A stretch of DNA of 64,000 bases from Alkalidesulfovibrio alkalitolerans DSM 16529 (lineage in GTDB: Bacteria > Desulfobacterota > Desulfovibrionia > Desulfovibrionales > Desulfovibrionaceae). The stretch covers positions 124,001-188,000 of the forward strand of contig NZ_ATHI01000026.1 of NCBI RefSeq assembly GCF_000422245.1, written 5' to 3'. Positions 19,725 through 31,447 of the stretch are shown here, piece after piece (within the stretch, counting starts at the first letter, position 1; the number at the start of each line of letters is the position of its first letter). Under the pieces are notes generated by a model that searched no databases, was not told where the DNA came from, and saw only the letters and a program-made list of their open reading frames with translations. A program made the position numbers and the translations under genes.

Positions 19725-20018
19725 TCAGCCGTCGATGAAGTTCGTCAGCACCTGCAGCGTCTTGTCCATCTTGCGCTTGGCCTCGGCCGGGTCGCCGCCT
19801 TCCATGGTCTTGTCGTAGCAGGTGGAGACGTAGCGTTTGAGGATGAGCGAGGTCGTGGACTTCAGGGCCGAGCGTACCGCCCGGACCTGGATCAGGATGT
19901 CCTCGCACTCCTTGCCGTCGCTGACCATGTTCTGGATGCCGCGGATCTGGCCTTCGATCTTGCGCAGGCGCGAGAGGACGTTTCTCTGGATTTCGTCGAG
20001 TTCTGGCTTGGCGTTCAT
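19725..20018 (-). CDS. CsoR/FrmR-family repressor of CstR (persulfide-sensing) type
   Basis: 97 residues, all helical, DUF156/CsoR family. Cys38 and Cys67 are 29 residues apart, the spacing of the two reactive cysteines in this family. The histidine that CsoR uses for Cu(I), four residues before the second Cys, is replaced by Tyr63. A C-no His-C pattern is known from CstR, which senses per- and polysulfides by crosslinking the cysteines. The neighbours are rhodanese and sulfur-reductase genes, which supports sulfane-sulfur sensing. Candidate operators ATACCC-type are at 20266-20280 and 26333-26347. Confidence 0.82.
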   Translation of the reverse strand: MNAKPELDEIQRNVLSRLRKIEGQIRGIQNMVSDGKECEDILIQVRAVRSALKSTTSLILKRYVSTCYDKTMEGGDPAEAKRKMDKTLQVLTNFIDG

Positions 20019-20265
20019 GGGCGAACATTTCCTGCAAGCCGCGTCATTGGATGATGCACGCGGGTCATTGGGGCTTGGGGGCAGGGCCGACGTCGGCTCA
20101 TCGACTGTCCGGGGCAAAGTGTGGCCGTTTCCACTCTTCGTCCTGGCGGACGCCGCGCTCCGCCGTTTCATCGGCCGTATGGCGCGTGCCTTGTGGGCGA
20201 GAACCCCTGACAACGACACCGCTGCGCTCCTTACCTCAATTTCAGACCACGGGCAACTGAAATAC

Positions 20266-20280
20266 ATACCCCGCCGGGGT
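20266..20280. promoter_or_regulatory. Possible CsoR/CstR-type operator upstream of the repressor gene
   Basis: ATACCCC-GCC-GGGGT is a near-perfect inverted repeat of the kind bound by CsoR-family proteins (ATACCC.. / ..GGGTAT). It lies in the ~340 base gene-free interval 20019-20357 between the repressor start and the end of the rhodanese gene. The interval is otherwise without a recognisable gene. Confidence 0.5.
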
Positions 20281-20357
20281 GCGGGGAGCCCCGATGCACA
20301 AGGAACGGCCGGGAAAACGCCCCGCAACCCTCGTACGCCGTACGCCGGGAGGAACGT

Positions 20358-20873
20358 TCATTCTGTGCCAAGAGGCCAATCCATGGTTCCCTCCACATAG
20401 CGGCGCACGTCCGTATATCCCAGGCGCGCAATCCAGCGCGCCCCGATCACGCTGCGCACTCATTGCGGCGAGCGGCAGTAGACGACCACCGTGCGTTCCT
20501 TGTCCGGACCGAGCAGCGCGAGAACGGCCGCCTGCTTGTCCGGTGCGATCCCATGCGCCTCGCCTGGCTCGAAGGGCATGTGCAGCGCGCCCTTCGGGTG
20601 GCCTTGGGTGAACTCGTAGTCTGGTCGGGTGTCAACCAGGAGTGGCGGCTCGTCCGAGAGCAGCAGCGCGCGCAATTCCTCGGCCCCGATGAGACGGTAG
20701 CCGTCCCTTTCGGCCTGCCAGGCGGCGCGCGGGAAGAGTGTCTCCGGGGATTTCGGGGAAGGCGTGTTGTCTTGCGCCCGCAAGGCGGCGGGCGCGAGTG
20801 TGGCGGCCAGCACCAGGGCGGCCAGCACCAGGGCGGCCAGGACGAGGGGGGAGGCGGGTGAGAGCCGGGTCAT
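20358..20873 (-). CDS. Candidate selenocysteine-containing rhodanese (in-frame UGA 20460-20462)
   Basis: 171 residues if UGA is read as Sec138. A signal peptide or anchor (LVLAALVLAALVLAATLAPA, residues 10-30) is followed by one rhodanese domain with LLVDTRPDYEFTQGHPKGALH. The active loop is YCRSPQ-UGA-VRS. After the UGA the same frame continues with a normal rhodanese end, GARWIARLGYTDVRRYVEG, to a TGA at 20358. Cys133-x4-Sec138 matches Cys-x4-Cys in both N-terminal domains of the next-door rhodanese. A GGCGCGC/GCGCGCC hairpin with a UGGAUU loop starts 17 bases after UGA. If UGA is a true stop, this is a 137-residue protein truncated just after the catalytic Cys. Confidence 0.72.
20422..20443 (-). 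promoter_or_regulatory. Candidate bacterial SECIS element
   Basis: On the minus strand GGCGCGC and GCGCGCC pair perfectly (7 bp plus one G-U), closing the six-base loop TGGATT. The loop begins 25 bases after the UGA and has G at its second position. This meets the usual bSECIS geometry (apical loop about 16-37 bases after UGA, a G in the first two loop positions). The region also encodes GARWIAR, and high GC could produce such a stem by chance. Confidence 0.55.
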
Positions 20874-20935
20874 GCGGGGCCTCCTTGGGGCGTCGGCCGG
20901 GGGGCCGGGAAGGTGATCCCGGCCCCCGCGTCCAG

Positions 20936-22048
20936 CTACTTGTTGGGCTTGATGGTGTAGCTGTTGTCCGGACCGTAGTCGATGGTGCCCTCGATGTAGT
21001 AGGCGTTCTTCATGTCCGCAGCCTTGTCCATGATCAGGTAGAAGGCCTCGCCCGAGCGCGCGCCTGTGTTGCACACGAAGACCACGGGCTTGTCGCGGGG
21101 CAGCTCGCCCAGGCGTCCCGCGAGCTGGCTGCCGGGGATGTTCACGGCCTGGGGAATGTGGCCCTTGGCGTATTCGTCCGGGTCGCGCACGTCCACGACC
21201 ATGATGCTGCCTGGGTTCTCGGCCAGGGCCTTCTGGAAGACGGCCACGTCCATGATGCCGTCCTCGCCTCCCGCGATTTCCACGGACTGGGCCGCGCCGA
21301 ACTTCTCCTTCCAGGCTGGGTAGCCGGCCTCGAAGACCTTGACCGTCTCGTAGCCCATGCGCTTGGCCGCGATGGCCGCGTCGTGCGAGAGCTTGCAGGT
21401 GAATCCTTCGCAGAAGAAGACGACCTCGGAGGCCTTGTCTGCGGGCAGGTAGCCTTTGCGCGCGTCGAACTGGCTTGCGGGCATGAACATCGCGCCGGGA
21501 ATGGAGCCGTCGAGGAACTTGGTGATGGGCCGCGAATCGGCCAGGAACATGGGCTCGCCCTTCTCGATCTTCTCACGCACGTATTCGATGCCCACGGATT
21601 CGTACACGCCCGCGTGGGTGATCCAGTCGGGGTAGCCGCCGGGATAGACCACGACGTTGGTGTAGCCGAGCTTTTCCGCCTTGCGCGCGGAGTTGTGCGA
21701 GAGCTTGCAGGCCGCGCCCTCGCAGTAGAAGATCAGGAGCGCGTCCTTCTCCTTGGGCAGTTCGGCCACGCGCGCGTCGAATTCGCTGTCCGGGATGCTT
21801 ACCGATGTCGGGATGTAGCCCTTGGCATGCTTGGTCATGTAGGGCCGCGAGTCGATGATCATCACCCCGTCGAGCTTGGGCATCTTCACGTAGTTTTTGA
21901 CGAAATCGAAATCGACGATTTTGTGGAAGAAATAGTCCGGGACTTTTTCCGCCGCCCGGGCCGTTGCCGCTCCCTGGGCCATGAGGGCCACAGCCAGGAA
22001 AAGCGCGACGAGAAGAGGCGAAAGCCTTCTGTGCAGGGTCGTGTTCAT
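20936..22048 (-). CDS. Periplasmic triple-domain rhodanese
   Basis: 370 residues with a signal peptide (residues 1-33, ending ARAAEK). Three rhodanese domains follow. Domains 1 and 2 have an unusual active loop with two cysteines, CEGAACKLS (Cys109, Cys114) and CEGFTCKLS (Cys213, Cys218). Domain 3 has a classical loop, CNTGARSG (Cys326). Rhodaneses carry sulfane sulfur as a cysteine persulfide, so this protein may deliver or store sulfur for the adjacent molybdenum enzyme. The ATG at 22048 has GGAGG upstream. Confidence 0.88.
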   Translation of the reverse strand: MNTTLHRRLSPLLVALFLAVALMAQGAATARAAEKVPDYFFHKIVDFDFVKNYVKMPKLDGVMIIDSRPYMTKHAKGYIPTSVSIPDSEFDARVAELPKEKDALLIFYCEGAACKLSHNSARKAEKLGYTNVVVYPGGYPDWITHAGVYESVGIEYVREKIEKGEPMFLADSRPITKFLDGSIPGAMFMPASQFDARKGYLPADKASEVVFFCEGFTCKLSHDAAIAAKRMGYETVKVFEAGYPAWKEKFGAAQSVEIAGGEDGIMDVAVFQKALAENPGSIMVVDVRDPDEYAKGHIPQAVNIPGSQLAGRLGELPRDKPVVFVCNTGARSGEAFYLIMDKAADMKNAYYIEGTIDYGPDNSYTIKPNK

Positions 22049-22107
22049 ACATCCTCCGGTTGACAAGGCGCTCCTGGCCCCATGCCCGGCCGCGCCTTTA
22101 GCTTCGT

Positions 22108-22854
22108 TCAGTCGTCAAGCCGCTGCGGCACCACGCCATCCTCTCCGGCCGGGAGATGCCTGATCTCCTCGTGCCACAGGGCGTGGTGATGCGCGGCGTA
22201 GTCCTCGGGAACCCAGCCCGTGAACATGGAGCGGAAACCCGGCCGCTCCTCCGGGCTGATGGCCGCCATGTAGACGTGCACGAGCAGGCCCGCGAAGGTC
22301 AGAGCGGCGAATATCCAGTGCAACAGAATGGCCCAGGAGACGACGATCGTGGTCTCGGCCGAGAAGCCGAACTGCGACCAGACCATGATCAGGCCGGTCA
22401 CGGCCAGACCGAGCCCTCCGAACACGGCCGCCTGGGCGAAGGCCTTCTGGCCCATGTTGTAGAAGCCCTGCGGGGGAAGCTCAGGATTCATGCCCAGCGC
22501 GCGCAGGGGCTTCTCGCCCAGGGTCATGAGGACCATCTTCTTGAACATCCAGGAGACGTCGCGGGGCAGATCGACCGTGAAGACGCGCCTGAGAAAGAAA
22601 CGCGCCCCCCTGAAGTTGCGGATCAGGTAGAAGAGCAGGCCCATGATCCAAAGACCGCCGAGGATCTCGTGGATCAGGAGCAGGTTGCCGCCTCCGCCGG
22701 TCAGGGAACGCACGGCTTGGGGATACCAGCCGCCGAGGGGGCTCAGCTCGGGCTTGAACAGGGCCAGACCCGTGAACATGAGCAGGATCCACAAGACGGC
22801 GTTGAACCAGTGGATGGCGATGTCCAGCCGCGAGTGGCGTTGATACTTCTTCAT
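22108..22854 (-). CDS. Cytochrome b membrane subunit of the Mo-oxidoreductase
   Basis: 248 residues with four main hydrophobic helices and haem-ligand histidines (HSRLDIAIHWFNAVLW, LLLIHEILGGLW, ILLHWIFAALTFAGLLVHVYM). It resembles the gamma subunits of formate dehydrogenase and thiosulfate reductase (FdnI/PhsC type), which connect the enzyme to the quinone pool. It starts three bases after the FeS-subunit stop. Confidence 0.9.
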   Translation of the reverse strand: MKKYQRHSRLDIAIHWFNAVLWILLMFTGLALFKPELSPLGGWYPQAVRSLTGGGGNLLLIHEILGGLWIMGLLFYLIRNFRGARFFLRRVFTVDLPRDVSWMFKKMVLMTLGEKPLRALGMNPELPPQGFYNMGQKAFAQAAVFGGLGLAVTGLIMVWSQFGFSAETTIVVSWAILLHWIFAALTFAGLLVHVYMAAISPEERPGFRSMFTGWVPEDYAAHHHALWHEEIRHLPAGEDGVVPQRLDD

Positions 22855-22857
22855 GGC

Positions 22858-23613
22858 CTACTCCTTCTTCGTGCCGTGCCCGCCGTGGGCATCGCGCTCC
22901 ACCAGGAAGCGTCGCGCGGCCATGGCCGCCACGCCCAGGCCCGCAAGCCCCACAAGGCCGGAGAGGCCGGGCAGAGCCCAGCCCGTCAGGGCTCGCATGG
23001 GCGACCGGATCTCGGCCCGCACGGGCCAGTCCAGGGGCGCGGTGTCCGCCAGATAGAACATGTTGGGTTCGGTGTCCGAATCCGCGCGCACCACCCGGAC
23101 GACCCGTTCGCGGTTGGCCTGGAGCAGGCGCGAGGCCTCGGAATCGGGGTCGGCGAGATCGCCAAAGACGCGGGCCTTGGTGGGGCAGGTGTCCACGCAG
23201 GCGGGCTGTAGCCCGGCGGCCCTGCGCTCGGCGCAGTAGTCGCACTTGTCAGCGACCTTGAGATCGGGATTGCGGAAGCGCGCGCCGTAGGGACAGGCGG
23301 GCAGACAGTTGCCGCAGCCAATGCACAGCCGCCTGTCGATGACCACCACGCCGGTTTCCTTGTCCTTGTAGGTCGCGCCCGTGGGGCAGGCGTCCACACA
23401 CAGCGGCTTGTCGCAGTGCATGCAGGCGCCGGGCTGGAAATGACCCCGACTGCCCGAGCCCGGACGCGGGATCACGGCCTTGGCCTTGATCCAGTTGCGC
23501 GAGTACCCTCTGGGCGCGTTGTTTGCGACCTTGCACGAGGCCACGCAACCCTTGCAGTCCATGCACTTGGAGGAGTCTATGACCATGGCCAGTTGGTGCT
23601 TCGCGGGGTTCAT
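22858..23613 (-). CDS. Four-cluster ferredoxin subunit with C-terminal membrane anchor
   Basis: 251 residues, PsrB/PhsB/DmsB-like. Cysteine groups are CMDCKGCVASC, CMHCDKPLCVDAC, CIGCGNCLPAC and CDYCAERRAAGLQPAC, enough for four [4Fe-4S] clusters. A hydrophobic stretch near residues 214-236 (LPGLSGLVGLAGLGVAAMAA) probably anchors it. There is no Tat signal of its own, so it is likely exported with the Tat-bearing catalytic subunit. Its ATG overlaps the stop of the catalytic gene by four bases. Confidence 0.9.
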   Translation of the reverse strand: MNPAKHQLAMVIDSSKCMDCKGCVASCKVANNAPRGYSRNWIKAKAVIPRPGSGSRGHFQPGACMHCDKPLCVDACPTGATYKDKETGVVVIDRRLCIGCGNCLPACPYGARFRNPDLKVADKCDYCAERRAAGLQPACVDTCPTKARVFGDLADPDSEASRLLQANRERVVRVVRADSDTEPNMFYLADTAPLDWPVRAEIRSPMRALTGWALPGLSGLVGLAGLGVAAMAARRFLVERDAHGGHGTKKE

Positions 23614-25838
23614 GAGACGCCTCCCGCCTTCGTTACCGTGACGAAGGTCTCGTGCATGGCCGCGTTGCCGGTCACGGCGTCCACGCGGCTTTCAAGGACC
23701 GCCGCGATGGCCAGGCCGTTGCCGTAGACGTTGGAAAGGCCTTTCGAGATCGAGCCGAAGCCGGTGTCGGTGTAGACCGTGTCCTCGCGGATGGCCTCGG
23801 TCACCTTCAGGGCCAGCGTACCCTCGCCCACGGCGCTTTTAACGCGCACCTCCATGCCGTCCGAAAGTCCCAGGCGCGCGGCCGCGTCCGGGTGCATCCA
23901 CAAGGAGTTGCTGGGCATGAGCTCGTGCAGCAGCGCGTTGTTGGTGGTGCTGCCTTGGGTCACCAGGGCGTTTCTGCCCACGACCATGCGGAAGGTTCCT
24001 TGCGGCGGCGAGGCGGGTGGCGTGTAGACGGGCAGGGGATCGAGCCCGGCCTGCGGATAGCGCTGGTTCATGAGCTCGATCTTGCCCGAACGCGTGCGGT
24101 AGCCGATGTTGTCATAGATGCCGTAGACCTTGGATGGGTTGTAGTAGACCCCGTCGCGCTCAAGGACCTCGGCCGCGCCGGGCAGGTCGGCGAGCTGCTT
24201 GGCGCGGTACTCCTCGATGGTGAAGTCGAAGTACTCGCCCAGGTCCATGCGTCCGGCCAGCTCCTTCATGACCTCGAAGATGGGCCTGGATTCGTACATG
24301 GCGGGCACCACCGGGTCGCGCTGCACCACGCAGGCGCAGGCGCTCGAGCCCTGCAACGCTTGGCAAGGGTCCTTGCGCTCCAGGTAGGAGGGCATGGGCA
24401 GCACCAGGTCGGCCATCCAGGCGGTGTCGCTCATCTGGATGTCGGCCACGGCCATGAACTCCATGGCCTCGATCATCTTCATGGTCCTGGCCCGGTCCGG
24501 AGCGGTTTGCATGGGGTTGGTCTTGAACACGAACCAGCCCTTGACCGGGTAGGGCTCGCCCGCGATGACCGCGTCGCGCGTGTGCACGAAGGAGCCTTCC
24601 TCCTCGAACATCAGGGGCGCCATGTGGGCGTCCACGCGGTCGTCGGGGTTGTCGTCGTACCACGGGGCATGGATGGGCACGCCCTTGAGCCCCACCTGGC
24701 GCGCGGCCAAGAGCCCGCCCGGCCGGTCCCAGTTGGCCAGCAGGGCGTTGACGATGGCCGTGGAGCGGCGGATCTGGGTGGAGTTCTCGTAGTCCGAGGT
24801 GCGCCGCCCGGGGTAGATGAGCGATGCGGGCGCGGCGGCGGCCAACTCGCGCGCGATGCGGGCGATGTCCGGTCCCGGGATGCCGGTCTCGGCGGCGGCC
24901 CACTGGGGCGTGCAGTCGCGCACGTGCTCGCGCAACTCGTCGAGGCCGAAGGTCTTTTCCGCCACCCAGGCGTCGTCGTAGAGGCGTTCGTTGATGATCA
25001 CGTGGCACATCGCCAGCATGAAGGCCATGTCCGTGCCGGGGCGGATGGGCCACCACTCGTGCGCCATGGCCGCGGTCTTGGTGTAGCGCGGGTCCAGCAC
25101 CACGAGCTTGGCGCCCGAGGCCATGGCCTCGACCATGTCCATGGAGTCGGGCGTGACCAGGGCCTCGAAGCGGTTGGCCCCGGCCATGATCACGTAGCGC
25201 GAGTTGAGCACGTCGGCGAAGGGCACCTCGCCGAAGGTGTCCAGATAGGCGCGGTTGAGCGAAATCAGGCACAGCGATTCGTGCGAGGTGATGTTGAAGG
25301 AGCCGTAGGCCTCGGCGAAGCGGTGCACGAACTGCGACTGCATGTCCGCGCCCACGGAGAAGAGCATGCCGCAGCGGGTGTATTTCTCGCCGATCTCGCC
25401 GAGTCGCTCGACCAGGATATCCATGGCTTCGGTCCAGGAGATGCGTTTCCACTTGCCCTCGCCGCGCGCGCCCTGGCGCAGCAGGGGGTGCTTCAGGCGG
25501 TCGGGGTCGTAGAGTTGGGCGATGCCCGCCTGGCCGCGCGCGCAGAGCATGCCGCGCGACTTGGTGAAGTGGGGGTTGGGGTCGAGCTTGACCACCCGGC
25601 CGTTCTTCACGCGGGCAATGAGGCCGCAACGGTTGAAACACATGTCGCAGACGGAATAATGGGACTCAAAGGGCCCGCTGGCCGCGGCGGCGTGGGCATC
25701 GGCAGCCGAAAGGGGGCCTGGAATGCGGCCCGCCGAGACGACGGCCGCGCCCGCGCCCATGGTCAGACCCGCGGCCTTGAGGAAAGCCCGGCGTCCGGGA
25801 TCGAATCCGGCGGAGCGTGGGTTCTTGGTCGTGGTCAT
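23610..25838 (-). CDS. Molybdopterin oxidoreductase, polysulfide/thiosulfate reductase type
   Basis: 742 residues. Tat signal RRAFLKAAGLTMG shows periplasmic location. An N-terminal [4Fe-4S] site is formed by Cys64, 67, 71 and 99, followed by the bis-MGD domains. Cys190 in SHESLC is at the molybdenum-ligand position typical of PsrA/PhsA enzymes, which reduce polysulfide or thiosulfate. GGAGG precedes the ATG at 25838. The flanking FeS, cytochrome b, rhodanese and CstR-like genes point to a sulfur compound as substrate; tetrathionate or another oxyanion cannot be excluded. Confidence 0.88.
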   Translation of the reverse strand: MTTTKNPRSAGFDPGRRAFLKAAGLTMGAGAAVVSAGRIPGPLSAADAHAAAASGPFESHYSVCDMCFNRCGLIARVKNGRVVKLDPNPHFTKSRGMLCARGQAGIAQLYDPDRLKHPLLRQGARGEGKWKRISWTEAMDILVERLGEIGEKYTRCGMLFSVGADMQSQFVHRFAEAYGSFNITSHESLCLISLNRAYLDTFGEVPFADVLNSRYVIMAGANRFEALVTPDSMDMVEAMASGAKLVVLDPRYTKTAAMAHEWWPIRPGTDMAFMLAMCHVIINERLYDDAWVAEKTFGLDELREHVRDCTPQWAAAETGIPGPDIARIARELAAAAPASLIYPGRRTSDYENSTQIRRSTAIVNALLANWDRPGGLLAARQVGLKGVPIHAPWYDDNPDDRVDAHMAPLMFEEEGSFVHTRDAVIAGEPYPVKGWFVFKTNPMQTAPDRARTMKMIEAMEFMAVADIQMSDTAWMADLVLPMPSYLERKDPCQALQGSSACACVVQRDPVVPAMYESRPIFEVMKELAGRMDLGEYFDFTIEEYRAKQLADLPGAAEVLERDGVYYNPSKVYGIYDNIGYRTRSGKIELMNQRYPQAGLDPLPVYTPPASPPQGTFRMVVGRNALVTQGSTTNNALLHELMPSNSLWMHPDAAARLGLSDGMEVRVKSAVGEGTLALKVTEAIREDTVYTDTGFGSISKGLSNVYGNGLAIAAVLESRVDAVTGNAAMHETFVTVTKAGGVS

Positions 25839-25897
25839 GGAGCAACCTCCTCGTGGTCGCGCGCCGCCCGGCGGCCGAGGCCGCCGGGCGCTAGCGT

Positions 25898-26230
25898 CTA
25901 GTTGCACTTCGCCGGGGAGGGCGAGTCCTTGGCGAAGTCGTAGAGGTAGGAGAAGGTGTCCTTGACGTCCGCCTCGGTCATCTCGGCGGGCCATTTGTCG
26001 CGGCAAGGCAGGGCTGCCGCGTTCTCGAAGTGAGCCTTCCACTCGGCCTGCACCAGCGAACTCGGCGAGAGGTCCGAGGCGGTCTGGCCGTGGCAGGTGC
26101 GGCAGTTCTTGGTGTAAAGGTACTTGCCCTTGCGGGCGTTGCCGCCCAGGGTGTCGGCCGCGACGGCCAGTCCGACGGTGGCGGCCAGGACGAGGACGGC
26201 GAAGCCGCCGATGGTCGTGGTGCGCTTCAT
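25898..26230 (-). CDS. Periplasmic monohaem cytochrome c
   Basis: 110 residues. Signal peptide (about 1-25, ending GLAVAAD), one CRTCH haem site (Cys43-His47), and a possible Met ligand in PAEMTE. Class I cytochrome c size. First gene of the sulfur module behind the promoter at 26329-26357; 59 bases before the molybdenum subunit. Likely a periplasmic electron carrier for the complex. Confidence 0.88.
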   Translation of the reverse strand: MKRTTTIGGFAVLVLAATVGLAVAADTLGGNARKGKYLYTKNCRTCHGQTASDLSPSSLVQAEWKAHFENAAALPCRDKWPAEMTEADVKDTFSYLYDFAKDSPSPAKCN

Positions 26231-26328
26231 GGCGATGCTCCTTGGTCGAAGGTTTTCCGTGCGCCCCGCGAGTGCGGCAAGCCCCTTTGACTCGTGCCAC
26301 GGCCGCGAAGCGATCCAGCCTTGATCCC

Positions 26329-26357
26329 TTGATACCCATACTGGGTAATAGTGTCAA
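26329..26357 (-). promoter_or_regulatory. Promoter of the sulfur module with palindromic operator in the spacer
   Basis: On the minus strand TTGACA (26352-26357), 17 bases, TATCAA (26329-26334). The palindrome TACCCA-TAC-TGGGTA (26333-26347) fills most of the spacer. Binding there would block RNA polymerase, and its half-sites match the ATACCC/GGGTAT form of CsoR-family operators. The rest of 26231-26647 shows no gene. Confidence 0.7.
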
Positions 26358-26647: not shown

Positions 26648-27631
26648 ATGGACATCCTCGAAGCAAACCTCCTCGACGGCCTGGCGCGCGACGCCACCCT
26701 ATGGATCGATCTCGCGGGCAAGTGGGCCATCGGCAACGGCCTACGCATCCTGCTCGTGCTCTGCCTCATCGTCCTCGCCGTGAAAGTCGGCGCGCGGCTC
26801 ATGGGGCTGCTTTTCGCCCGCATCTCCCGCGGTCGCGACGTGGAGTACTGCAAGCGCATCGACACCCTGCATTCCATCGTGGCTTTCACGCTCAAGGCGG
26901 GCCTGACCACGATCGGCGTGTTCGTGGTGCTGGGGCAACTCGGCATCGACATAGCCCCGATCCTGGCCGCGGCCGGTATCCTCGGCTTGGCCGTGGGCTT
27001 CGGTGCGCAAACGCTCGTGCAGGACGTGATTTCGGGCTTCTTTTTGCTCGTGGAAGACCAGGTGCGCGTGGGCGACGTGGTCCAGATCGGTGACAAGGGC
27101 GGGCTGGTCGAGAAGATCACCCTGCGCCTCATCGTGCTGCGCGACATGGCGGGCAACGTCCACTACATCCGCAACGGCACCGTGGGCGTGGTCACCAACA
27201 TGACCAAGGACTACTCGCGCTACGTCTTCGACATCGGCGTGGCCTACAAGGAGGACGTGGATCGCGTCATCGAGGTCGTGAAGAAAGTGGACGAGGACAT
27301 GCGCGCCGATCCAGAATTCGGCCGCGACATCCTCGACCCCATTGAGATACTCGGCGTGGACCGCTTCGAGGATTCGGCCGTGGTCATCCGCGCCCGCACC
27401 AAGACCGTGCCCATCCGGCAGTGGGCCGTGGGCCGCGAGTTCAACAAGCGGCTGAAGAAGCGCTTTGACACCGAAGGCATCGAGATTCCCTTCCCCCACC
27501 GCACCATCTACTGGGGCGAAGGCCACTCCCCGCGCGAGCAGCGCGACCCTGCGACGCCCAGGCCAAAACCGGCCGAAGCCTCGCCCGCTCAGAGTTCGGC
27601 GGCGCCTACGGCCGATTCCGAGGGCGGTTAG
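26648..27631 (+). CDS. Small-conductance mechanosensitive channel, MscS family
   Basis: 327 residues. Three membrane segments (about 28-50, 75-98, 103-125), with the pore-lining helix and the MscS core ILGLAVGFGAQTLVQDVISG. The cytoplasmic beta and alpha/beta domains follow (GDVVQIGDKGGLVEKITLRLIVLRD and VKKVDEDMRADPEF), with a Pro/Ala-rich tail. Releases solutes on osmotic downshock. ATG at 26648; the next gene begins 12 bases after the stop. Confidence 0.92.
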   Translation: MDILEANLLDGLARDATLWIDLAGKWAIGNGLRILLVLCLIVLAVKVGARLMGLLFARISRGRDVEYCKRIDTLHSIVAFTLKAGLTTIGVFVVLGQLGIDIAPILAAAGILGLAVGFGAQTLVQDVISGFFLLVEDQVRVGDVVQIGDKGGLVEKITLRLIVLRDMAGNVHYIRNGTVGVVTNMTKDYSRYVFDIGVAYKEDVDRVIEVVKKVDEDMRADPEFGRDILDPIEILGVDRFEDSAVVIRARTKTVPIRQWAVGREFNKRLKKRFDTEGIEIPFPHRTIYWGEGHSPREQRDPATPRPKPAEASPAQSSAAPTADSEGG

Positions 27632-28930: not shown

Positions 28931-30241
28931 ATGGCGAAACATCAGACCCCACTGCTCGACGAGCTGACCAAGGGGCCCTGGCCGAGCTTTGTTGACGACG
29001 TCAAGGCCGAAGCGGCCCGGCGCGCCGCCAACAAGGACGGCGTCGAGTACCAGATCCCGGTGGACGTCTGCGAAGACCTGCTGGGCATCCTGGAGCTGTG
29101 CTACAAGGACAAGGAGACCCACTGGAAGCACGGCGGCATCGTGGGCGTCTTCGGGTACGGCGGCGGCGTCATCGGCCGTTACTGTGACGTTCCCAAGCAG
29201 TTCCCGGGCGTGGCCCACTTCCACACCGTCCGCGTCAACCAGCCCGGCGGCAAGTACTACACCACCGAGTACCTGCGCGGCCTGATCGACATCTGGGACA
29301 TGCGCGGCTCCGGCCTGACCAACATGCACGGTTCCACCGGCGACATGGTGTGGCTGGGCACCTTCACCGAGCAGCTCGAAGAGATATTCTACGAGCTCAC
29401 CCACAAGATGAACACCGACCTTGGCGGCTCGGGCTCCAACCTGCGCACGCCCGCCGAATGTCTGGGCATGTCCCGTTGCGAGTACGCCTGCTACGACACG
29501 ATGGCCCTGTGCTACGCCATGACCCAGGAATACCAGGACGAACTGCACCGTCCCGCCTTCCCTTACAAGTTCAAGTTCAAGTTCGACGGCTGCCCCAACG
29601 GCTGCGTGGCCGCCCTGGCCCGCTCCGACCTGTCCTTCGTGGGCACCTGGAAGGGCGCCATCAAGATCGACCAGAAGGCCGTCGCCGCGTATGTCGGCGG
29701 TGAGCTGAAGCCCAACGCCGGCGCCCACGCCAGCCGCGACTGGGGCAAGTTCGACATCATGAAGGAAGTCGTGGACCTGTGTCCCACGAAGTGCATGAGC
29801 TACGATGGCAAGACCCTGAAGATCGACGACAAGGAATGCTACCGCTGCATGCACTGCATCAACACCATGCCCGCCGCCCTGCGCGTGGGCGACGAGAAGG
29901 GCCTGTGCATCCTGGCCGGCGCCAAGGCTCCCATCCTTGACGGCGCCCAGATGTCCTCCTTGCTCGCTCCGTTCGTGCCCGTCGAGGAGCCGTTCGACGA
30001 GGTCAAGGAAGTGGTCGAGAACGTTTGGGAATGGTGGATGGAAGAGGGCAAGAACCGCGAGCGTCTGGGCGAGACCCTGAAGCGCCTGGGCTTCGGCAAG
30101 ATCCTCGAAGTCACCAACATCACCCCGGACGCCCGCCACGTGCAGCATCCGCGCGAGAACCCCTACATCTTCTGGACCGCCGATGAAGTTGGCGGCTGGG
30201 ATCGCGACATCAAGGAATACCGCAAGCGTCACGCCCGCTAG
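28931..30241 (+). CDS. dsrA: Dissimilatory sulfite reductase alpha subunit
   Basis: 436 residues. The [4Fe-4S]-sirohaem ligands Cys177, Cys183 (AECLGMSRCEYAC), Cys221 and Cys225 (GCPNGC) are all present. An inserted ferredoxin domain (LCPTKCMSYDG and CYRCMHCINTMP) follows. With DsrB it forms the alpha2beta2 enzyme that reduces sulfite with DsrC. It is cytoplasmic. An intact full-length copy, next to dsrB 60 bases downstream. Confidence 0.98.
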   Translation: MAKHQTPLLDELTKGPWPSFVDDVKAEAARRAANKDGVEYQIPVDVCEDLLGILELCYKDKETHWKHGGIVGVFGYGGGVIGRYCDVPKQFPGVAHFHTVRVNQPGGKYYTTEYLRGLIDIWDMRGSGLTNMHGSTGDMVWLGTFTEQLEEIFYELTHKMNTDLGGSGSNLRTPAECLGMSRCEYACYDTMALCYAMTQEYQDELHRPAFPYKFKFKFDGCPNGCVAALARSDLSFVGTWKGAIKIDQKAVAAYVGGELKPNAGAHASRDWGKFDIMKEVVDLCPTKCMSYDGKTLKIDDKECYRCMHCINTMPAALRVGDEKGLCILAGAKAPILDGAQMSSLLAPFVPVEEPFDEVKEVVENVWEWWMEEGKNRERLGETLKRLGFGKILEVTNITPDARHVQHPRENPYIFWTADEVGGWDRDIKEYRKRHAR

Positions 30242-30301
30242 GCGGTATCGCGAAACGGCTGAAACTGATCGACAACGACAGAAATCAAGGGAGGACACCC
30301 C

Positions 30302-31447
30302 ATGGCTTTCGTTTCCTCGGGTTACAATCCGGACAAACCGATGGAAGGCCGCATTTCCGACATCGGACCCCGCCACTACACCGACTTCCTGCCGCCGGTC
30401 ATCCAAAAGAACTACGGCAAGTGGCTGTACCATGAGATCATCGAGCCCGGCGTGCTGATGCACAAGGCCGAGTCCGGCGACGAGGTGTACACCGTTCGCG
30501 TCGGTTCCGCCCGCTTGGTCTCCGTGGGTCTGATCCGCGAGATCTGCGACATCGCCGACAAGCACTGCGGCGGGCACGTCCGCTGGACGACCCGCAACAA
30601 CGTCGAGTTCATGGTGGACAGCAAGGACAAGGTCGGCCCCCTGAAGGACGACCTGATGTCCCGCAAGTTCGCTGGCGGCTCCTACAAGTTCCCCATCGGC
30701 GGAACCGGCGCCTCCGTGCCCAACATCGTCCACACCCAGGGCTGGGTGCACTGCCACACGCCCGCCACCGACGCTTCCGGCCCGGTGAAGGTCATCATGG
30801 ACGAGCTGTTCAAGGAGTTCCAGTCCATGGAACTGCCCGCTCCCATGCGTCTGGCCGTGGCCTGCTGCCTGAACATGTGCGGCGCCTGCCACTGCTCCGA
30901 CATCGCGGTCGTCGGCATCCACCGCAAGCCGCCCCTCATCGACCACGAGGTTCTCGAGAACATCTGTGAGATCCCGCTGGCCGTCGCTGCCTGCCCCACG
31001 GCCGCCATCCGTCCCTCCAAGACCGAGTTCGAGGGCAAGGAAGTCAAGACCGTGGCCATCAAGGAAGAGCGTTGCATGTTCTGCGGCAACTGCTACACCA
31101 TGTGCGCCGCTCTGCCCCTGGCCGACGCCGAGGGCGACGGCTGCGCCATCATGGTCGGCGGCAAGGTCTCCAACCGCATCAGCAATCCCAAGTTCTCCAA
31201 GGTCGTCGTGGCCTACGTGCCCAACGAGCCCCCGCGCTGGCCGAGCCTGGTGAAGACCATCCGCCAGATCGTGGACGCCTACAAGAAGGGCGCGAACAAG
31301 TACGAGCGCGTCGGCGACTGGGCCGAGCGTATTGGTTGGGAGCGTTTCTTCGATGTCACCGGCCTGGAGTTCTCCAAGCACCTGATCGACGACTTCCGCG
31401 ATCCGGCCTACTACACCTGGCGTCAGACCACCAACTTCAAGTGGTAA
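30302..31447 (+). CDS. dsrB: Dissimilatory sulfite reductase beta subunit
   Basis: 381 residues. The catalytic sirohaem-coupled cluster region has [12 protein letters not shown] (Cys188, 189, 193 and following), and the ferredoxin domain has [11 protein letters not shown]. DsrB carries the active sirohaem of the pair. AAGGGAGG lies seven bases before ATG 30302. A strong hairpin separates it from dsrD. Confidence 0.98.

Follow-up and report, generated by a model that had tools for sequence, protein, structure and literature searches.

Seven genes lie together on the minus strand of the window, by which we mean the whole 64-kb stretch of DNA analysed here. They encode, in order, a cytochrome c, a molybdenum (Mo) subunit, a four-cluster FeS protein, a cytochrome b, a triple rhodanese, a selenocysteine (Sec) rhodanese and a CsoR-family repressor (Table 1), and each gene assignment is backed by Pfam and NCBIfam matches. 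The first-pass annotation had named this single-strand gene set, and all of its members were recovered from Pfam, NCBIfam and alignments. Its outer boundary at 26357 was misplaced: the TTG at that position was picked arbitrarily from a long open frame, whereas the start of the first gene is at 26230. Between the Sec rhodanese gene and csoR is a gap of ~340 nt that contains a terminator-like hairpin. The genes dsrA and dsrB (window 28931-31447) lie on the opposite strand, ~2.7 kb upstream of the operon; between them and the operon are one further gene and an MscS-type channel gene (26648-27631).

Table 1. Genes and sequence features of the operon, with coordinates in the window.
Feature	Position	Strand	Basis
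CsoR/CstR-type operator TACCCAGTATGGGTA, 15-bp palindrome	26333..26347	-	3' of TTGACA (26352-26357), operon promoter region
Periplasmic monoheme cytochrome c, one CxxCH	25898..26230	-	Pfam Cytochrome_CBB3 above cut-off
Tat-exported molybdopterin catalytic subunit, PsrA/PhsA type	23610..25838	-	Tat motif; Cys190 Mo ligand (alignment); Arg345
Four-[4Fe4S] electron-transfer subunit	22858..23613	-	16 conserved Cys; C-terminal membrane anchor judged by eye
Membrane cytochrome b, FDH-gamma/PhsC type	22108..22854	-	Pfam PF01292 (Ni_hydr_CYTB); TIGR01583 below cut-off
Exported triple rhodanese	20936..22048	-	Three Pfam Rhodanese stretches
Exported one-domain selenocysteine rhodanese, loop YCRSPQ-U-VRS	20358..20873	-	Pfam Rhodanese; TGA/Cys exchange
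In-frame TGA, selenocysteine by sequence, residue 138	20460..20462	-	TGA/Cys exchange; selB and tRNA-Sec in genome
Candidate SECIS-like hairpin, apical loop UGGAUU	20415..20450	-	RNA fold
CsoR-family repressor, CstR-like	19725..20018	-	Pfam PF02583; Cys38, Cys67; Tyr63 at Cu-ligand His position

The best solved relative of the Mo subunit is Thermus PsrA (2vpw), which it matches over residues 16-738 with an E-value of 2e-120 (7e-150 for a profile). When a profile of 16 orthologs was aligned to 2vpw, Cys190 fell on PsrA Cys173 and Arg345 on Arg332. Cys190 is invariant in 16/16 orthologs and Arg345 is likewise invariant in the alignment. The earlier description of a Psr/Phs-type Mo enzyme with a Cys ligand therefore holds over the full length of the protein, and 16 conserved Cys bear out the four-cluster FeS protein. 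Together with the membrane anchor, these are the subunits that define the Psr/Phs/Sre group, whose members Phs, Psr and Sre are indistinguishable by sequence (PMC8359478). Among NCBIfam models the best match of the Mo subunit was PhsA (NF012032) at 553.4 bits, below the curated cut-off of 694, and we did not file it as a PhsA equivalog.

Five His residues of the cytochrome b are near-invariant among orthologs. In the cytochrome c, a C-terminal Cys109 is invariant across the family, and Cys76 occurs in 55/56 rhodanese-bearing loci versus 1/8 loci without rhodaneses, a correlation that runs along the phylogeny and could stem from one event. Ortholog conservation in this family revealed no Met that stands out as a conserved ligand, so an unusual heme ligand or a role in sulfur handling is possible.

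Rhodaneses and selenocysteine

The first two domains of the triple rhodanese carry the loop C-x4-C-x-x-S, while the third has a canonical loop (CNTGARS). Sec replaces the second loop Cys of this protein in many orthologs. Across 81 loci, position X of the loop C-x4-X-x-x-S was encoded by TGA 45 times, by Cys 73 times, by Ala once and by TAA or TAG never, with domains counted singly and hence not independent of one another. Because TGA exchanges with Cys and never with TAA or TAG, and because the genome encodes selB (389.7 bits, above cut-off) and tRNA-Sec (88.8 bits), the TGA in the window is, judged by sequence, a selenocysteine codon. The first-pass candidate for a Sec rhodanese is thus upheld, and a true stop or a pseudogene is ruled out by the lack of TAA/TAG at the site. 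Sec was present in 21/29 one-domain rhodaneses; multi-rhodaneses of several orders also contain it, in one or two of their domains.

The Sec sites of multi-rhodaneses (rhod3-type) share a 7-bp hairpin ~18 nt downstream with three compensatory pairs, and its energy is low relative to codon shuffles (mean z -2.8). The Sec rhodanese gene in the window has a strong hairpin of its own downstream of the TGA. No SECIS consensus or covariation was found among one-domain Sec rhodanese orthologs, whose individual folds are barely more stable than those of codon shuffles (mean z -0.4). Eight loci without cytochrome b (L107, L129, L134, L141, L145, L152, L154 and L167) encode multi-rhodaneses with two Sec and a covarying SECIS-like hairpin, and their available stretches contain no one-domain Sec rhodanese.

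Most one-domain rhodaneses (22/29) have a C-terminal extension of ~200 aa, which contains a CxxC motif in 21 of the 22. The extension matches AhpC-TSA, a thioredoxin-like family, above the cut-off in one example and just below it in another. The Sec rhodanese of the window and its counterpart in the sister genome are without this extension. An AlphaFold model of the window protein (pLDDT 87) has a rhodanese fold (Z 13.9), and no specific functional relative emerged from VIA-align and Foldseek, which rank many rhodaneses about equally. Sud (1qxn) was among the fold matches, with a poor sequence match (E 0.96).

The nearest described family is TsoB (NF045694), a Sec rhodanese/DsbD fusion that likewise has a rhodanese domain with Sec at the end of its loop and is tied to a thiol-redox module. 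The window protein matches TsoB in the rhodanese part only (1.7e-25, 89 bits); it scores far below the cut-off of 805 and has no DsbD part, and we therefore did not file it as TsoB. While TsoB combines a UxxxxU loop with DsbD, the window protein has CxxxxU and its orthologs a thioredoxin-like tail. These tails and the likeness to TsoB suggest from sequence that, beyond sulfur transfer alone, the C-x4-U loop has a role in thiol redox chemistry. The selenoproteome lists of PMC13188914 contain a rhodanese-like selenoprotein form 1 with the same UxxS motif, and these lists give no Mo reductase operon context for it.

Two further selenoprotein candidates were observed in the same genome. A full TsoB selenoprotein (G000 C11:68867-69169, L193; 917 bits, two TGA) lies elsewhere, which brings the number of Sec rhodanese systems in this organism to two or more. 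One in-frame TGA is also present in the gene of another molybdopterin enzyme (G000 C31:204728-206173, L007), probably a Sec formate dehydrogenase.

Conservation of the gene set and its operator

Orthologs of the Mo subunit, defined as having at least 54% identity, were found in 30/119 related genomes, where the next PhsA-like enzymes had at most 42% identity, one truncated 53% match apart. Rhodanese domains were present at all 26/26 ortholog loci with at least 3 kb of sequence downstream, and other PhsA-like enzymes of these genomes are generally without them. Conversely, the triple rhodanese (E < 1e-30) occurred in 21/119 genomes, 19 of which also have the Mo ortholog. Gene order was retained in nearly all ortholog loci across dozens of genomes, which rules out a chance assembly of genes. 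In the wider class the distribution is patchy, with the Mo ortholog in 70/297 genomes.

A scan of bacterial and archaeal genomes yielded 80 loci from Desulfovibrionales, Desulfobacterales, Desulfarculales, SAR324, Desulfuromonadales and Acidobacteriota. In a phylogenetic tree the Mo subunits formed a clade with a support of 100, separate from 21 other PhsA-like enzymes. Rhodaneses accompany this clade in 47/51 loci with enough flanking sequence, including 36/36 loci of the cytochrome-b type, versus 2/31 lower-scoring relatives, one of which is a truncated clade member. The gene set is thus a kept module in a clade that spans Desulfobacterota; homologous clusters that regularly lack the rhodaneses, named beforehand as evidence against a functional link, were not seen. 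The tree also indicates that the anchor was swapped between cytochrome b and NrfD at least once while the rhodaneses were retained.

Four clade loci (L117, L121, L144 and L160) have no rhodaneses nearby. All four are without cytochrome b and instead carry a gene whose family member in L121 encodes an NrfD-type anchor. Since these NrfD-anchored members do without them, rhodaneses are not absolutely required by the clade. In L117 and L121, an NrfD-type anchor of ~1100 aa fused to a multiheme cytochrome c adjoins the Mo subunit, an arrangement that gives the Mo clade another electron route. Near L121 there are also genes for a TorD-like chaperone and a sigma54-type regulator.

The repressor has Cys38 and Cys67 in 30/30 family members and Tyr63 in 29/30, the latter aligned with the Cu-ligand His of the Cu-CsoR 4m1p. 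It was correctly described before as lacking the Cu histidine and, with two conserved Cys, it has the sequence hallmarks of the CstR subfamily. The palindrome TACCC-N5-GGGTA precedes the operon in 27/28 csoR-positive loci versus 0/40 csoR-negative loci; several genomes were counted twice in two overlapping collections, and without duplicates the positives are ~22/23. In the 64-kb window TACCCAGTATGGGTA is the only match to the palindrome (0 in shuffles), and the whole genome contains three sites. In loci that lack CsoR, palindrome matches located downstream of the Mo gene were discarded, as they fall on the conserved RYPAGY codons of rhodaneses and are probably coding. That the operator tracks csoR supports the proposed CsoR control of the operon. 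By the precedent of CstR (PMC10318464), the repressor would be expected to sense persulfides.

Function of the module and its alternatives

We suggest that the operon probably encodes a periplasm-facing, menaquinone-linked oxidoreductase for sulfane sulfur (polysulfide/thiosulfate) that belongs to the Psr/Phs (CISM) family and comes with Sud-like rhodaneses of its own. From the sequences a sulfur substrate is favoured by three features: an active site of the PsrA type, dedicated rhodaneses and a CstR-like regulator. From the first-pass proposal of a sulfane-sulfur respiration module, the conserved combination and the csoR-linked operator stand and the sulfur substrate is favoured, while respiration of sulfane sulfur is something that we infer, as are the substrate, the direction, the hand-over of sulfur and the chemistry of the Sec loop.

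Electrons would pass between the quinone pool, the cytochrome b, the four Fe-S clusters and a Cys-ligated Mo-bisPGD site, which would cleave the S-S bond of polysulfide, thiosulfate or a protein persulfide, or make one in reverse. The triple and Sec rhodaneses may bind periplasmic sulfane sulfur as Cys persulfides and give it to the enzyme or take it from the enzyme, like Sud for Psr in Wolinella. In the C-x4-U/C loop the second residue (Sec or Cys) could attack the persulfide; sulfide would leave and a selenenylsulfide or disulfide would remain, to be re-reduced by the cytochrome c or by the thioredoxin-like CxxC domain that most orthologs carry as a fusion. The putative CstR-like repressor would sit on the promoter operator until its two Cys react with sulfane sulfur. 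A more specific version has the Mo enzyme act on protein-bound sulfur, with the C-x4-U rhodaneses (thioredoxin-like tails) and the Cys-containing cytochrome c delivering or removing persulfide sulfur at the Mo site. In this previously undescribed arrangement, which we regard as possible yet on balance doubtful, selenium would shape sulfane-sulfur respiration in many sulfate reducers.

The thioredoxin-like tails point to reductive release of sulfur, and a reductive direction is weakly favoured for this reason. The enzyme might also run oxidatively, moving sulfane sulfur from sulfide, or sulfide plus sulfite, onto the rhodaneses and electrons to menaquinone, for sulfide use or detoxification or with thiosulfate or zero-valent sulfur as the product. 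Psr/Phs-type enzymes are reversible in principle and the carrier proteins would pull product away. Energetically, the oxidative direction is the easier one, since menaquinol is a poor electron donor for reducing sulfur or thiosulfate whereas sulfide can pass electrons downhill to menaquinone. It is also favoured by a proposal for Desulfurivibrio alkaliphilus grown with sulfide and nitrate, in which sulfur formation was assigned to a strongly expressed rhodanese/molybdopterin/polysulfide-reductase operon (PMC5516251) that may or may not belong to the Mo clade. With the tails of the Sec rhodaneses against it, we consider oxidative operation rather unlikely, if the strongest of the alternatives.

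Less probable by a clear step is an ordinary thiosulfate reductase (Phs) whose adjoining rhodaneses and CstR-like repressor form a separate unit for detoxification of reactive sulfur, with no sulfur transfer between the two. PhsA is the best NCBIfam match, CstR regulators often control nearby rhodaneses (PMC10318464), and phsA of Oceanidesulfovibrio marinus makes sulfide from thiosulfate in Escherichia coli (PMC10989961). However, the rhodaneses stay with the enzyme in orders that lack CsoR and through the exchange of anchors. Moreover, the conserved operator precedes the cytochrome c gene, and the enzyme and rhodaneses therefore appear to share one transcript. A respiratory reductase for arsenate, selenate or another non-sulfur substrate is very improbable. 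CISM enzymes are diverse and the ArrA and selenate-reductase models do match weakly, but ArrA reaches 163 bits versus 553 for PhsA, the PsrA-like Cys and Arg are conserved, and the dedicated rhodaneses and CstR-like sensor also speak against it.

The sulfane-sulfur oxidoreductase that we favour has several known counterparts. Wolinella succinogenes PsrABC is also a quinone-linked periplasmic enzyme of the Psr family served by a periplasmic rhodanese, Sud, which binds polysulfide sulfur (PMC3397948). The window differs in having a cytochrome b in place of the NrfD anchor, four rhodanese domains with Sec and C-x4-C/U loops, a dedicated cytochrome c and CstR-like control. Salmonella-type PhsABC shares the layout of Mo, four-cluster FeS and cytochrome b subunits, to which the window operon adds rhodaneses, the cytochrome c and the repressor, and the Mo subunit is below the PhsA cut-off. 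CstR and TTHA1953 of the CsoR family similarly have two reactive Cys, control of sulfur genes and a GC-rich palindrome (PMC10318464), while the predicted sensor in the window sits with a respiratory-type Mo enzyme. The MOLY cluster of sulfur disproportionators consists of MolyA, MolyB and the TorD-type chaperone MolyC with no membrane anchor. The window operon has an anchor and no TorD within it, while a TorD-like gene lies close by in NrfD-type relatives. In a disproportionating Desulfolithobacter, a rhodanese and Mo enzymes were detected (PMC9751629) that may or may not belong to the Mo clade.

Among the open-licence full texts searched, we found no paper describing the operon and no experiment on any member. 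Its parts are known and the pairing of rhodanese with Psr is a known theme, but the fixed combination with Sec C-x4-U rhodaneses, thioredoxin-like tails, an extra-Cys cytochrome c and CstR-like control looks new in the open literature. The passage of zero-valent sulfur through the periplasm is an unsolved problem for sulfate reducers and sulfur disproportionators alike (PMC8359478, PMC12998232), and it becomes testable on one operon. In several Desulfobacterota classes, the module couples a Mo enzyme to sulfur carriers of its own and provides a genetic marker, the Mo clade with a C-x4-U rhodanese, together with a sulfur-type switch. It also offers a concrete respiratory context for a group of selenoproteins whose function is unknown.
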